22,882 nt of DNA from a virus. Each line of letters begins with the position of its first letter. Position 1 is the stretch's first letter. The stretch spans positions 1 through 22,882 of the IMG/VR virus record IMGVR_UViG_3300023079_000010; one strand, written 5' to 3'. The position numbers were made by a program, and so were the translations under genes. The notes under the pieces are model-generated. The model did no database searches and was not told the origin of the DNA. It saw nothing but the letters and a program-made list of their open reading frames with translations. Shown here one piece after another: positions 942 to 5,247 of the stretch.

Positions 942-2846
942 TCAGACCTTGGCCCACCGCTCCCCCATGTCCGCCATGTCGGTGCGCAGCACCGGGACCC
1001 GACCGGTCCACCACACCAGACGCGGTGGCGGGGTGGCCATCACCGAGCACACATCATGCGCCGCTTCCCCGTCGACCACCAGCTCGTCGTGCATCGACAG
1101 GAAGATCGCGTCACCCAGTCCGCGGCGTTCGCACTCGAGCACGGACTCGGCCAGCACGTCGTAGGCGCTGCCCTGGACGAAGTAGTTCTGGCCCTTGTAG
1201 CCGGCGAACCCCGCGGGCCGGCCCTCCTCGGCCGGGTACCACGGGACGTCCAGGACCCGGCCGCTGAGCGTCACGATCTGACCGGACTTGTTCGCCGTGC
1301 GCTTGAGGGCGCGCAGCACCCCGGCCGAGCGCGGCAGCGCGGCGAAGATCCGGTCTCGCAGCTCTTCGGCCTGGCGGATCGGGATGCCCAGGTTGCGCGC
1401 CGAGGAGGAGATCGACTCGCCGTACATCGCCGCCAGCAGGATGATCTTGGACGCGTCGTAACTCACCCCGGCCGCGGCGCTGACCGTGTGGTAGATCTTC
1501 TCGCCGCGTTGCTCGTAGCCCTCGAGCATGCCGGTGTCGCCGGCGATGTTGGCCAGCACGACCGGTTCGATCTGGGCCCAGTCGATGGAGGTCAGCGACC
1601 GGCCCTCGTCGGCCATCACCACGCCACGGGCCGGCTCCGGGATCTGGTGGACGGGGAAGTCACCGGAGTAGCTGGAGCGGCCCGTGGCGCTGGCCGCGAG
1701 GATCCCCACGGCGGGGTGCAGCCGGTCGTCCATCCCCGCCCACGGCAGCAGCGTGTTCACCGTGACCGGGACGCTGCTCATCGCCCGGCCGGCTTTCTCC
1801 AGGTAGTCGTCGCGGATGTGGGTCAGCTTCGCGTAGCGCACGTGCTCCCGTGCCAGCGGGTGATCGAGTTTCTCCAGGTGCTCCGCCGCGGCGCTGGGCT
1901 TCTTGTTGAGCCCCGACTTGCCGCCCTTGGTCTTGGGGTGCGTCGCAGGCAACGCGTCCTGCTCGAGCAGCTTCGCGATCAGGTCGTTGCCGTTACCCGG
2001 CCGGATGCCGGCGGCGGTCAGGGTCTTCTCCGCCTCGTCGATCTCGCGGTCGTGGGTGATCCGGTAGGCGTCCAGGAAGTCGGGGTCCCCGCGCAGGCCG
2101 CGGATCGTGCGGCGCAGGAACACCCGGTTGATCACCTGCTCCCGGTCCAGCAGCCGCAGCGCCTCCTCGGCGTCGTCCAGCCCGCCGTGACCGGCGAACC
2201 CGTGCACGGTGAGCCGCTTCCACGCCGCCTGGCGCACCGGGTCGCGCAGCCGCGCGGTGGTGACCGCGTCGCGCATGGCCTCGGTGAGGTACCCCGGCGC
2301 GTCGATGTCCACCTCGGCGTAGAACCGCTCCAGCGTCATCCCCAGGCTCTTCGCGGCCAGGTTCTTGCCCTTGCCCAGCGGCAGGCCCAGGTAACGGTGG
2401 GCGCAGTCACCGAGGGTCTTGCGTCGCAGTGGGTTGGGCTCCGCCAGCCTGGCCCAGATCATCGTGCACCAGGTCTTGGCCACGTGCTCGAGCCGCAGGA
2501 TGCCCAGCACGCCGAGGTTGGGCACGTCGAACGCGCTGTTGTGGAACACCACGGCCGGGGCCAGGTCGAACACCAGGGTGATCAGGGCGCGCTGGTAGGC
2601 CTCGCGCGGGTCCAGCGCCACGACGTGGGTGGGCGTGGCGAAGGTGACGACCTTGACCAGGTAGCGGGCCGCGCCGTCCTTGCCCACCGACTCGATGTCG
2701 CAGGAGACGAATCCCGGCGCCCAGGTGAGCAGCTGAGTGACGGCGTCGCGGACGTGGTCGCGGCCGACGGTGGCCAGGATGCCGTCGGGCCAGCGCTGGG
2801 TGCCGTCCCAGGCCGGGGTGACCGGGTGCCCGGTGTAGACGCTCAC
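942..2846 (-). CDS. Family A DNA polymerase with 3'-5' exonuclease domain
   Basis: A 634-residue replicative polymerase. The exonuclease domain shows Exo I (D50, E52 in DIES), Exo II (NSAFD, 103-107) and a probable Exo III (D193 followed by AVTTARL). The polymerase domain shows motif A (IDWAQIEP, D422), motif B (K467 to Y475-G476) and motif C (MHDEL, H586-D587-E588). There is no 5' nuclease domain, as is usual for phage enzymes. The frame is open back to 3134, but the GTG at 2846 is the likely start: it overlaps the RHH stop as GTGA, so translation is probably coupled, and no good ribosome site precedes it. In motif B the position of Taq Arg659 is Tyr463 and that of Phe667 is Leu471. Leucine there is familiar in phage enzymes; the missing Arg is less so. 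The function is confident. Confidence 0.93.
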   Translation of the reverse strand: MSVYTGHPVTPAWDGTQRWPDGILATVGRDHVRDAVTQLLTWAPGFVSCDIESVGKDGAARYLVKVVTFATPTHVVALDPREAYQRALITLVFDLAPAVVFHNSAFDVPNLGVLGILRLEHVAKTWCTMIWARLAEPNPLRRKTLGDCAHRYLGLPLGKGKNLAAKSLGMTLERFYAEVDIDAPGYLTEAMRDAVTTARLRDPVRQAAWKRLTVHGFAGHGGLDDAEEALRLLDREQVINRVFLRRTIRGLRGDPDFLDAYRITHDREIDEAEKTLTAAGIRPGNGNDLIAKLLEQDALPATHPKTKGGKSGLNKKPSAAAEHLEKLDHPLAREHVRYAKLTHIRDDYLEKAGRAMSSVPVTVNTLLPWAGMDDRLHPAVGILAASATGRSSYSGDFPVHQIPEPARGVVMADEGRSLTSIDWAQIEPVVLANIAGDTGMLEGYEQRGEKIYHTVSAAAGVSYDASKIILLAAMYGESISSSARNLGIPIRQAEELRDRIFAALPRSAGVLRALKRTANKSGQIVTLSGRVLDVPWYPAEEGRPAGFAGYKGQNYFVQGSAYDVLAESVLECERRGLGDAIFLSMHDELVVDGEAAHDVCSVMATPPPRLVWWTGRVPVLRTDMADMGERWAKV

Positions 2847-3100
2847 GGGGTGTCCGGGAAGTAGGACCTGCCCGCGCCCAGGTAAATGCCTTTGGTCGCC
2901 GCTTCCCCGACCTGACGTCGTCGGTCGTTCTCCTCGTCGCGCTCCAGGCGGGAGCGGCAGGCGTTGCGGATCCAGGCCGCGCGGTCGGATCCGGACTTGG
3001 CCGCGGCGACGGCGATCTCCCGCCACAGCGGATCGGGGAAGCGGACGGTGCGGGGCTGGAGATCGGTCTCGATGTCCTCGGCGGGTGTGGGTTGTGTCAT
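2843..3100 (-). CDS. Ribbon-helix-helix (Arc/CopG-like) DNA-binding protein
   Basis: An 85-residue protein. A short beta strand (RTVRF, 17-21) is followed by helix A (23-36), a turn (SGSD) and helix B (39-54), which is the RHH fold. RHH proteins act as dimers that insert the paired strand into the major groove and often bind arrays of short repeats. The C-terminal ~30 residues are extra and unassigned. The gene is first in the leftward replication operon and overlaps the polymerase by four bases. It begins 47 bases from the nearest TGTGAGA heptad. An in-frame stop lies upstream, so ATG 3100 is the only reasonable start, and it has no visible ribosome site. A likely role is autoregulation of the operon, or origin or partition binding. 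The fold is inferred from sequence pattern only. Confidence 0.75.
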   Translation of the reverse strand: MTQPTPAEDIETDLQPRTVRFPDPLWREIAVAAAKSGSDRAAWIRNACRSRLERDEENDRRRQVGEAATKGIYLGAGRSYFPDTP

Positions 3101-3106
3101 GGCGCG

Positions 3107-3112
3107 ACCGTA
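3107..3112 (-). promoter_or_regulatory. Candidate -10 box for leaderless transcription of the RHH operon
   Basis: On the minus strand TACGGT (TAnnnT pattern) is preceded by TGC and ends six bases before the RHH ATG, so the predicted first transcribed base would be the A of the start codon. This fits the absence of a ribosome binding site and the commonness of leaderless messages in actinobacteria. No convincing -35 is seen (GGTGCG at 17-bp spacing). Confidence 0.3.
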
Positions 3113-3186
3113 GCACGCTCAGGCATCTGCGCACCCTGGCGCGAGTTGTGAGACCGATCCTCGGCGAGGTGTGAGACGGGTCGAGT

Positions 3187-3207
3187 TGTGAGATGTGAGT
3201 TGTGACA
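3187..3207 (+). repeat. Left heptad block, three unspaced 7-bp repeats
   Basis: TGTGAGA, TGTGAGT and TGTGACA follow each other with no spacer. The shared pattern is TGTGA-S-W. Two further exact TGTGAGA copies lie upstream at 3147 and 3170. Confidence 0.9.
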
Positions 3208-3237
3208 GGGGGTGAGACCGGGTGACTGTCGGGAGTT

Positions 3238-3330
3238 ACGCATAAATGTGATCCAAAATAGCATTATTATTACTCTTAGTTATATAGTAACTGGAATCGT
3301 ATACGTAGAGTCACTACTGAGTTGTGATTT
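3238..3330. other. AT-rich core, candidate duplex-unwinding element or promoter region
   Basis: By direct count only 24 of 80 bases are G or C between 3241 and 3320, in an otherwise strongly GC-rich window. The stretch contains TTATTATTA and TATATAGTAA. A TATAGT hexamer at 3283-3288 could be a rightward -10, but no good -35 is seen at 17 bp. Its position between heptad arrays and beside polymerase and primase genes fits a replication origin, a divergent promoter pair, or both. Confidence 0.6.
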
Positions 3331-3353
3331 CTCTTCTCCACGGACCCAAGGGA

Positions 3354-3374
3354 TCTCACAACTCACAACTCACA
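3354..3374 (-). repeat. Right heptad block, three unspaced 7-bp repeats in inverted orientation
   Basis: On the plus strand TCTCACA, ACTCACA and ACTCACA are contiguous. They are the reverse complement of the left block pattern, so the two blocks face each other across the AT-rich core. Confidence 0.9.
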
Positions 3375-3540
3375 ACTGAGGAACTCTCGTGTCTTCAAGT
3401 GCCCGCCGAGGAGGGGCTCGAGGTCTTGTGGCCCATGGCACGATGATCAGGTGGACGCACACGCCGAGGAGACCGGTCGTGCAGTGATAGTGTGATTGGC
3501 GTCAGGTTCGGCAACAGCAGGTGGTGGAAGGCGGTGACCA

Positions 3541-3804
3541 GTGGCTACGTGCCTGTGCGAGGTGCATCAGCCGACCGAACGCCGAGGCTCGTTGCTGGAC
3601 TGGAGCCAGTTCGCCAACGGCCGCTGGTGGCGTCTGCGCCGAGGCGAGGACCACGACCAGACACCCCGCAAGGCGTTGCAGTCGGCTCGGATGTGGGCCA
3701 AGCGCAACGGCATGCTCGCCGAGGCCGAACTCCCCGCCGTGGGCGAGGACGACGAGCCATGGGCCATCCGGTTCTACCCACGACCCGACGGCTCGGGACG
3801 GTGA
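3541..3804 (+). CDS. Small actinophage protein of unknown function (87 aa)
   Basis: First rightward gene, 87 residues. The central block WSQFANGRWWRLRRGED, followed by TPRKALQSARMWAKRNGM, resembles a family of short actinobacterial phage proteins that combine an aromatic-rich strand (GxxWxLxxGEDF) with one amphipathic helix. Their function is not known. The GTG start has GGAAGG nine bases upstream. The stop is three bases before the small terminase ATG, so the two are probably cotranscribed. A TGTGATT heptad-like motif lies at 3491-3497. Recognition is by pattern memory, without a search. It is probably soluble, with no membrane segment or cysteine cluster (only C4 and C6). Confidence 0.7.
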   Translation: MATCLCEVHQPTERRGSLLDWSQFANGRWWRLRRGEDHDQTPRKALQSARMWAKRNGMLAEAELPAVGEDDEPWAIRFYPRPDGSGR

Positions 3805-3807
3805 CCC

Positions 3808-4410
3808 ATGGCCGAGCAGCTCCCCGAGGACTACGCCCCGGAAGCCCCTGATCCGCTCCTCAAACCCTCACGTAGGCCCAGGAAACCCAGCGTCAAGCAG
3901 GGCAAGGTCCGGCCGGGACAGGGCAGCGTCCAGTCCGAGGAGTCCGTGATGCGCGACCGGCGCGCCATGGAGCTCGGCGTCGACGGCTGGTCCAACGCAG
4001 CCATCGCCAAGGAGCTGGGCTACCGCGACGGCGCCTCGGTGCGTGAGGCCATCACCCGGCACACGATGAAGATCGTCGACCAGCCGGCCCGCGCGGTGCG
4101 GGAGCTGATGCTCGGCCAACTGGATCGGGCGATCGAAGCCGCCATCGCGGTGATGCTCACACCCAGTTACAAGATCCAGCACGGGGAGCTGGTGGTGGTG
4201 CCCGACCCGCTCAACCCCGGCGCCGAGATCACGCTCACCGACCCCGGTCCCCGGCTCGCCGCGGCCAACACCTTGGCGACGCTGCTGGACCGCAAGTCCA
4301 AGATGCTCGGCATCGACCCACCCGAGCGCCAGGAAATCAGCATCACCCAGTTGCCGGCGTTCGTCGACACGTGGCTGGCCGACAAGAAACGGAAGGTGAC
4401 CGGTGACTGA
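3808..4410 (+). CDS. terS: Terminase small subunit
   Basis: A 200-residue protein that should recognise phage DNA and load it onto the large terminase. Residues 52-86 form a helix-turn-helix block (AMELGVDGWSNAAIAKELGY, then a SVREAITRH recognition helix). Residues 92-118 and 149-168 are helical and likely mediate ring oligomerisation, and a C-terminal tail follows. The first 45 residues are Pro/Lys-rich and probably disordered. Similar GWS-x-x-x-IA-x-ELGY proteins sit before the large terminase in many actinophages. The start ATG follows the upstream stop by three bases, with a weak ribosome site (GGGACGG). Its end overlaps the next gene by eight bases. Three small genes separate it from the large subunit, an unusually long gap for a terminase pair. 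Confidence 0.85.
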   Translation: MAEQLPEDYAPEAPDPLLKPSRRPRKPSVKQGKVRPGQGSVQSEESVMRDRRAMELGVDGWSNAAIAKELGYRDGASVREAITRHTMKIVDQPARAVRELMLGQLDRAIEAAIAVMLTPSYKIQHGELVVVPDPLNPGAEITLTDPGPRLAAANTLATLLDRKSKMLGIDPPERQEISITQLPAFVDTWLADKKRKVTGD

Positions 4411-4860: not shown

Positions 4861-5247
4861 GTGACCGAGGACAATCCGCTGGTCGTGCGCCGCGTCGGGC
4901 CGCCAATCCTCATCAGCCGGGCCGAGTACGACGAGCTGGTGTTCGACGGCTGGGACGGGGTCGCGCGGGTGTTCTGGGATGAGCTGGGCGCCCGGGCCGC
5001 GGCGCTGTACTCCCACGCCCTGGTGCCCCTGCCGCTGGCCGGTCCTCGGCACGAGAGCCGGCATCTGGTTGAAGACGAGCCGCACCGTTGCCCGGCACAT
5101 GGGGACGTGGCGTGCACCTGGTGTGCGCAGAACCCGGCCAGTTGTGGACCGGACAGCAACAACAGTCCTGCCTGTGACTACTACCGCGAGACTGGGATGC
5201 ACTGGGACACGTGCCCCAACCGCGTCCTGTCGGCGCCTCCAACGTGA
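4861..5247 (+). CDS. Cys/His-rich small protein of unknown function (128 aa)
   Basis: A 128-residue protein. The N-terminal half (SRAEYDELVFDGWDGVARVF) is helical. The C-terminal half holds C77, H80, C85, C88, C95, C105, H114 and C118, in blocks such as ACTWCAQNPASC and TGMHWDTC. This spacing suggests one or two zinc sites. Comparable CTWC...GMHWDTC proteins occur in Streptomyces and other actinomycete phages, without known function. The GTG start follows GAGGAGG at a suitable distance. The stop overlaps the proposed large terminase start as GTGA. No nuclease motif such as HNH is evident, although HNH genes often sit beside terminases. The assignment rests on pattern recognition only. Confidence 0.7.
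   Translation: MTEDNPLVVRRVGPPILISRAEYDELVFDGWDGVARVFWDELGARAAALYSHALVPLPLAGPRHESRHLVEDEPHRCPAHGDVACTWCAQNPASCGPDSNNSPACDYYRETGMHWDTCPNRVLSAPPT

Follow-up and report, generated by a model that had tools for sequence, protein, structure and literature searches.

A repeat array enclosing an AT-rich core

IMG/VR record IMGVR_UViG_3300023079_000010, analysed here over its positions 1 to 22,882 (the window, 22,882 bases in all), belongs to an uncultured actinobacterial phage. Between its leftward replication genes and its rightward packaging genes lies an array of short repeats at 3142-3377, which we describe as a candidate replication origin. The original prediction had read this array as unspaced 7-bp heptads recognized by a ribbon-helix-helix (RHH) protein encoded beside it, and the heptad copies that it listed were all found exactly where it had placed them. 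The heptads are nonetheless a partial description: contiguous runs of three do exist, but the conserved unit is 9-10 bp, and the left-hand spacings also include 23 and 17 bp. Repeat analysis gave the isolated copies as (G)AGTTGTGAG. The 9-mer AGTTGTGAG is present in nine copies, five perfect and four near-perfect, which outscored all other sites of the window in a matrix scan. These iterons form two sets around an AT-rich core, five to its left (spacings 23, 17, 7 and 7 bp) and four to its right (with spacings of 7 and 7 bp). The left iterons all point inward, and the right set comprises three inverted copies and one that is not inverted.

3142 to 3377, no strand: whole candidate origin (iteron and core layout; comparison with twin contig)
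3144 to 3152, plus: iteron L1, AGTTGTGAG (sequence; matrix scan)
3167 to 3175, plus: iteron L2, AGGTGTGAG (repeat analysis, matrix scan)
3184 to 3192, plus: iteron L3, AGTTGTGAG (repeat analysis, matrix scan)
3191 to 3199, plus: iteron L4, AGATGTGAG, 7 bp beyond L3 (matrix scan)
3198 to 3206, plus: iteron L5, AGTTGTGAC, 7 bp beyond L4 (repeat analysis, matrix scan)
3238 to 3318, no strand: AT-rich core, candidate melting region (AT content)
3320 to 3328, plus: iteron R1, AGTTGTGAT, right of the core and oriented like the left set (repeat analysis, matrix scan)
3355 to 3363, minus: iteron R2, inverted AGTTGTGAG (matrix scan)
3362 to 3370, minus: iteron R3, inverted AGTTGTGAG (matrix scan)
3369 to 3377, minus: iteron R4, inverted AGTTGTGAG (matrix scan)

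The enclosure of the core by both iteron sets was absent from the original prediction. No other 60-mer of the window is as rich in AT as positions 3242-3301 (75% AT, against 57% for the runner-up elsewhere and a window mean of 31%), and among the window's inverted pairs that enclose AT-rich DNA the arms 3183-3198 and 3356-3371 rank first. Exact matches to WCTCACA number seven in the whole window, every one of them inside 3147-3374. The same motif averaged 0.21 copies (maximum 3) and never formed an unspaced triplet over 5000 dinucleotide shuffles of the stretch 3101-3480; the real sequence has seven copies and two triplets, which rules out a chance origin of the repeats.

A twin contig (L003/L006), 97% identical to the window, differs from it at approximately 3.4% of positions in the flanks of the array. 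At that rate about 8 differences would be expected in the 236 bp of 3142-3377; there is one, at position 3155, between iterons. A crude scan for sigma-70 promoters and terminators gave no match, nor did Rfam and tRNA scans, and no nucleotide match was found among phages.

The replication operon

The left iteron set lies approximately 42 bp from the start of a leftward operon, and hence beside a primase/helicase replication module. The gene order is RHH, PolA, Prim-Pol, with the PolA gene overlapping the end of the RHH gene by 4 bases.

2843 to 3100, minus: 85-aa RHH protein, first gene of the replication operon (PHROGs matches; twin 98% identical)
942 to 2846, minus: family A DNA polymerase, PolA (PF00476, E=5e-25; phrog_17)
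1 to 828, minus: bifunctional primase/polymerase, Prim-Pol, N-terminal part, gene truncated by the contig end (PF09250, E=1e-12; phrog_906, E=1e-62)

The RHH gene, with its ATG at 3100, is real as had been claimed (phrog_949, E=3e-5; Arc-like phrog_6506, E=6e-4), and it does head the replication operon, with PolA and Prim-Pol downstream of it. Its protein had no match over the cut-off in Pfam and none in a PDB sequence search. By tblastn no relatives were found among phages, and among viral contigs the twin was the only one. Both expected helices are present in the predicted fold, a low-confidence model (pLDDT 58).

The same architecture in related phages

To compare the locus with its relatives we gathered TerL homologues from viral contigs and placed their primase-helicase genes by Pfam models. 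Many relatives were found to carry a short repeat of their own, arranged in two usually opposed sets around an AT-rich core. The whole lies beside the primase-helicase gene or 5' of the operon to which that gene belongs, and the repeat sequence itself differs among most lineages. A blind scan around primase-helicase genes placed the strongest inverted 7-mer cluster just 5' of the operon or at the 3' end of the gene in 13 of 21 records, and these clusters mostly involve AT-rich DNA. Shuffling of the relatives' array regions gave p<=0.003 in most of those tested, in a panel that includes regions spotted via their arrays.

The nearest Prim-Pol/PolA kin of the window, G001, has a Prim-Pol-AAA_25 gene whose 3' end carries TGACAT arrays; judging from this relative, the helicase of the window's phage is probably of the AAA_25/RepA type rather than D5. 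In L195, GGGGGCA arrays separate a leftward Prim-Pol-D5 operon from rightward genes towards TerL, and the open reading frame (ORF) at the head of that operon does not, by eye, have the look of an RHH protein. The arrays of L087 and L199 are located between helicase and PolA sequences. In L023, 29-nt inverted arms, 149 nt apart, flank an AT-rich patch directly 3' of a gene fragment that hits the C-terminal portion of a DNA polymerase/primase family in PHROGs and has no BLASTP match to the G001 helicase. Isperia, OscarSo and Wyvern, which fall outside the 13 by 7-mer count, have in common, by eye and close to the genome end (L200:32270-32400), a core enclosed by GGTTGTCAGGTTGTTAC ... AACAACAACCACAGCAACC, a candidate origin of these Microbacterium phages. 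Arrays were also sought in DirtyBubble and 9NA, and none was seen there.

Two further observations concern individual relatives. The equivalent gap of L007 (115-215) holds TGATACTTAGTG twice, 56 bp apart, along with copies of AGTGATA, possibly that relative's own iterons. Downstream of PolA in Gordonia phage Morrissey (L020:8420-8485), the stretch between two genes contains CTCATGTGATCGTTCG, an inverted repeat whose 16-bp arms match perfectly and stand 34 nt apart.

When 2.9 million viral contigs were searched for exact runs of three unspaced WCTCACA copies, eight matches came up, the twin among them. One of the others, L010, comes from an unrelated phage (39% GC) and has CTCAC-core repeats to the left and TGTGAGATGTGAGATGTGAGA to the right of a core of approximately 92 bp. 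Its array starts about 90 bp past the stop codon of a helicase gene of the VapE type (PF05272, E=6e-39), with TerL downstream of the array, and no RHH protein was recognized among the ORFs of its 4-kb contig. The other six (L011-L014, L016 and L017), judged from the surroundings of the match, are mostly one-sided runs in other contexts, and we did not use them as support. In L013 (550-680) an intergenic gap is apparently filled by some 15 in-phase degenerate heptads, AAxTCxx, that reach a start codon; similar one-sided period-7 runs precede start codons in L012 and L014, contigs otherwise unrelated.

In seven related phages, repeat type follows the helicase C-terminus

Which protein tracks the repeats could be asked of seven Streptomyces phages and metagenomic kin that share two repeat types, compared by percent identity. 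GGAGGG repeats are found in Rooney, phiRKBJ001, Lizz, G014 and G030 (8-12 copies, 1.1-2.0 expected), whose helicase tails are 66-100% identical. The GGTCGG type is that of Gibson and G013 (7-8 copies, 0.5-1.1 expected), whose tails show 86% identity between the two and 42-45% identity to those of the GGAGGG group. In the ATPase core of the helicase, identity among the seven is 82-100%, and by their N-terminal parts they group otherwise, G013 with Rooney and G030 with Gibson; these discordant recombinants agree in direction with the pairing of helicase tail and repeat. The small terminase subunit (TerS) does not track the repeats, being 99% identical between Rooney (GGAGGG) and Gibson (GGTCGG) and 90% between Lizz and G013, whose repeats also differ. 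The first gene of the operon shows no correspondence with repeat type in the seven. Small as the sample is, it suggests that repeat sequence goes with the ~115 C-terminal residues of the helicase alone, and not with the primase, the ATPase, TerS or the first operon gene. Outside this set, GGATGA repeats accompany an unrelated helicase half in PHTowN and Wentworth.

In Rooney the conserved phrog_38269 gene is preceded by an additional ORF that PHROGs does not match (L205:5521-5931), and Rooney's repeats equal those of phages in which no such ORF is annotated.

A candidate origin and the alternatives

We think it likely that 3142-3377 is a replication origin with the layout of phage-inducible chromosomal islands (PICIs) and Staphylococcus aureus pathogenicity islands (SaPIs), its iterons being read by the phage's own Prim-Pol/helicase. 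In PICI origins two iteron sets always flank an AT-rich region (PMC6092414), and SaPI Rep helicases recognize their iterons via the C-terminal domain (PMC7581432); the proposal draws on both precedents. The Prim-Pol at 1-828 is the predicted initiator. The initiator, most likely through the C-terminal part of the Prim-Pol/helicase, would assemble on both iteron sets, open the AT-rich core, and load the helicase or become it, and PolA from the same operon would carry out extension. An origin complex had been one of the options in the original prediction, and to that extent the two agree.

Several points weigh against this assignment. The contig does not reach the helicase and C-terminal parts, so that recognition of the site by this phage's helicase is inferred; so is its activity as an origin. 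The co-variation is that of D5-type helicases, and the Prim-Pol kin of the window (phrog_906, G001) carry AAA_25. No GC-skew switch was found at the array. Because several members of the shuffle-tested panel were first spotted through their arrays, that test is biased; the blind 21-gene scan and the co-variation comparison are less so. ReqiPine5, Evaa, Audrey and Morrissey, whose Prim-Pol is similar to that of the window, had no comparable arrays in the stretches scanned, and the layout is therefore common but not universal. Finally, the PICI origin lies immediately 3' of rep, whereas the site described here is 5' of the whole operon, as it is in L195 and the Streptomyces phages; for this reason we claim a like way of working and not membership in the PICI/SaPI group.

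The first alternative takes up the original prediction, in which the RHH protein (2843-3100) binds the arrays and controls the divergent operons. In the form considered here, binding would be cooperative, as with omega of pSM19035, and would repress the protein's own operon, possibly along with the divergent one. Autoregulation is frequent among RHH families, the RHH start codon is 46 bp from the first heptad copy, and the TCACA core is similar to the omega heptad WATCACW, which 3323-3329 and 3491-3497 match exactly. In pRN1, moreover, a small DNA-binding copy-control (repressor) gene, orf56, precedes the primase/helicase replication gene orf904 in one operon (PMC4234260), an analogous pairing that makes the RHH protein plausible as a regulator of the replication operon. 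Its binding to these repeats is another matter, and we consider it unlikely. When the pairing of gene and array was looked for in relatives, arrays of like architecture were found to be kept without a phrog_949 gene: that family occurs only in the window and its twin and in none of 45 other records, many of which have the architecture (some of the records are fragments, and other RHH families could remain in them). L010 has TGTGAG arrays and no RHH gene seen in its contig, repeat type in the relatives tracks the helicase tail, and the conserved unit is 9-10 bp rather than 7. Contiguous runs here reach three, and omega parS requires four contiguous heptads for ParA activation. Nothing found in the comparison supports a link between the RHH protein and the repeats.

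Less likely still is a double role, in which the origin iterons would also be operators and the RHH protein would exert copy control of the replication operon at the same or a nearby site. The intergenic region is shared by divergent genes, and orf56/orf904 again offers a precedent; yet there is no direct sign of the RHH protein reading the repeats, and the crude scan for sigma-70 promoters had found no match.

The array is also upstream of TerS and TerL, and in the Streptomyces relatives it is near the genome end, as might be expected of a packaging (pac/cos) site read by a TerS encoded nearby. We regard this as very improbable for the window, and for the relatives it is ruled out by the discordance of TerS identity and repeat type in Rooney/Gibson and Lizz/G013. 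The rightward operon begins with an 87-aa protein and a probable TerS, followed by TerL (at 5211) and portal by PHROGs matches.

3541 to 3804, plus: 87-aa protein, first gene of the rightward operon (homologue with weak Lsr2 DNA-binding match)
3808 to 4410, plus: probable TerS (phrog_645, E=3e-19; position and homologues before TerL)

The gene stands before TerL, and the label "Rnase E" that PHROGs gives to phrog_645 is thus apparently a mislabel. Homologues of the 87-aa protein adjoin TerS in L007, L021 and L023, and on the strength of a weak Lsr2 match in the L023 copy (E=0.002) the protein may be a binder of AT-rich DNA next to the AT-rich core.

That the array is a partition (parS-like) site, as its superficial resemblance to omega heptads might invite, we all but discount, no ParA (delta) partner having been recognized among the window proteins examined, although most of the phage genome lies outside the contig.

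Implications

Taken more broadly, we judge it an evenly balanced proposition that full-size tailed actinophages commonly use an origin layout once attributed to PICIs alone among known bacterial replicons. Each lineage would pair its own iteron with an exchangeable primase-helicase C-terminal tail, so that natural recombination of ~115 residues and the intergenic region would have swapped origin specificity. Characterized actinophage replication origins are apparently few. An earlier description of such a layout in phages was not found in a partial literature collection, which is weak evidence. The layout, together with the pairing of helicase tail and iteron, would provide a rule by which origins could be located in phages with a primase-helicase of their own, and the same rule would predict the matching initiator.

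Comparison with known systems

Omega/parS of pSM19035 resembles the locus in its unspaced 7-bp runs, TCACA core, direct and inverted copies and nearby RHH gene. Each parS, however, has 7-10 consecutive WATCACW heptads, whereas here there are at most three consecutive copies, the consensus is WCTCACA, the unit is 9-10 bp, an AT-rich core separates the sets, and the architecture persists in relatives where the RHH gene is missing.

The pRN1 orf56/orf904 operon is likewise led by a gene for a small DNA-binding protein, but the origin proposed for it is a stem-loop downstream of the replication gene, and the authors of that work could not identify an iteron/AT-rich origin. In SCCmec, the C-terminal domain of the Cch2 helicase binds short repeats at a putative origin, as we propose here; these are three 5-nt direct repeats, 3' of the helicase gene, in a Staphylococcus element.

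PICI/SaPI origins share with the window two iteron sets around an AT-rich region beside primase/helicase genes, and their Rep proteins share with the relatives tested a helicase C-terminus that goes with iteron type. They differ in that the phages considered here are tailed actinophages and not satellites, that the helicase is probably Prim-Pol-AAA_25 and not D5/VapE, and that the origin of the window is a candidate by sequence.
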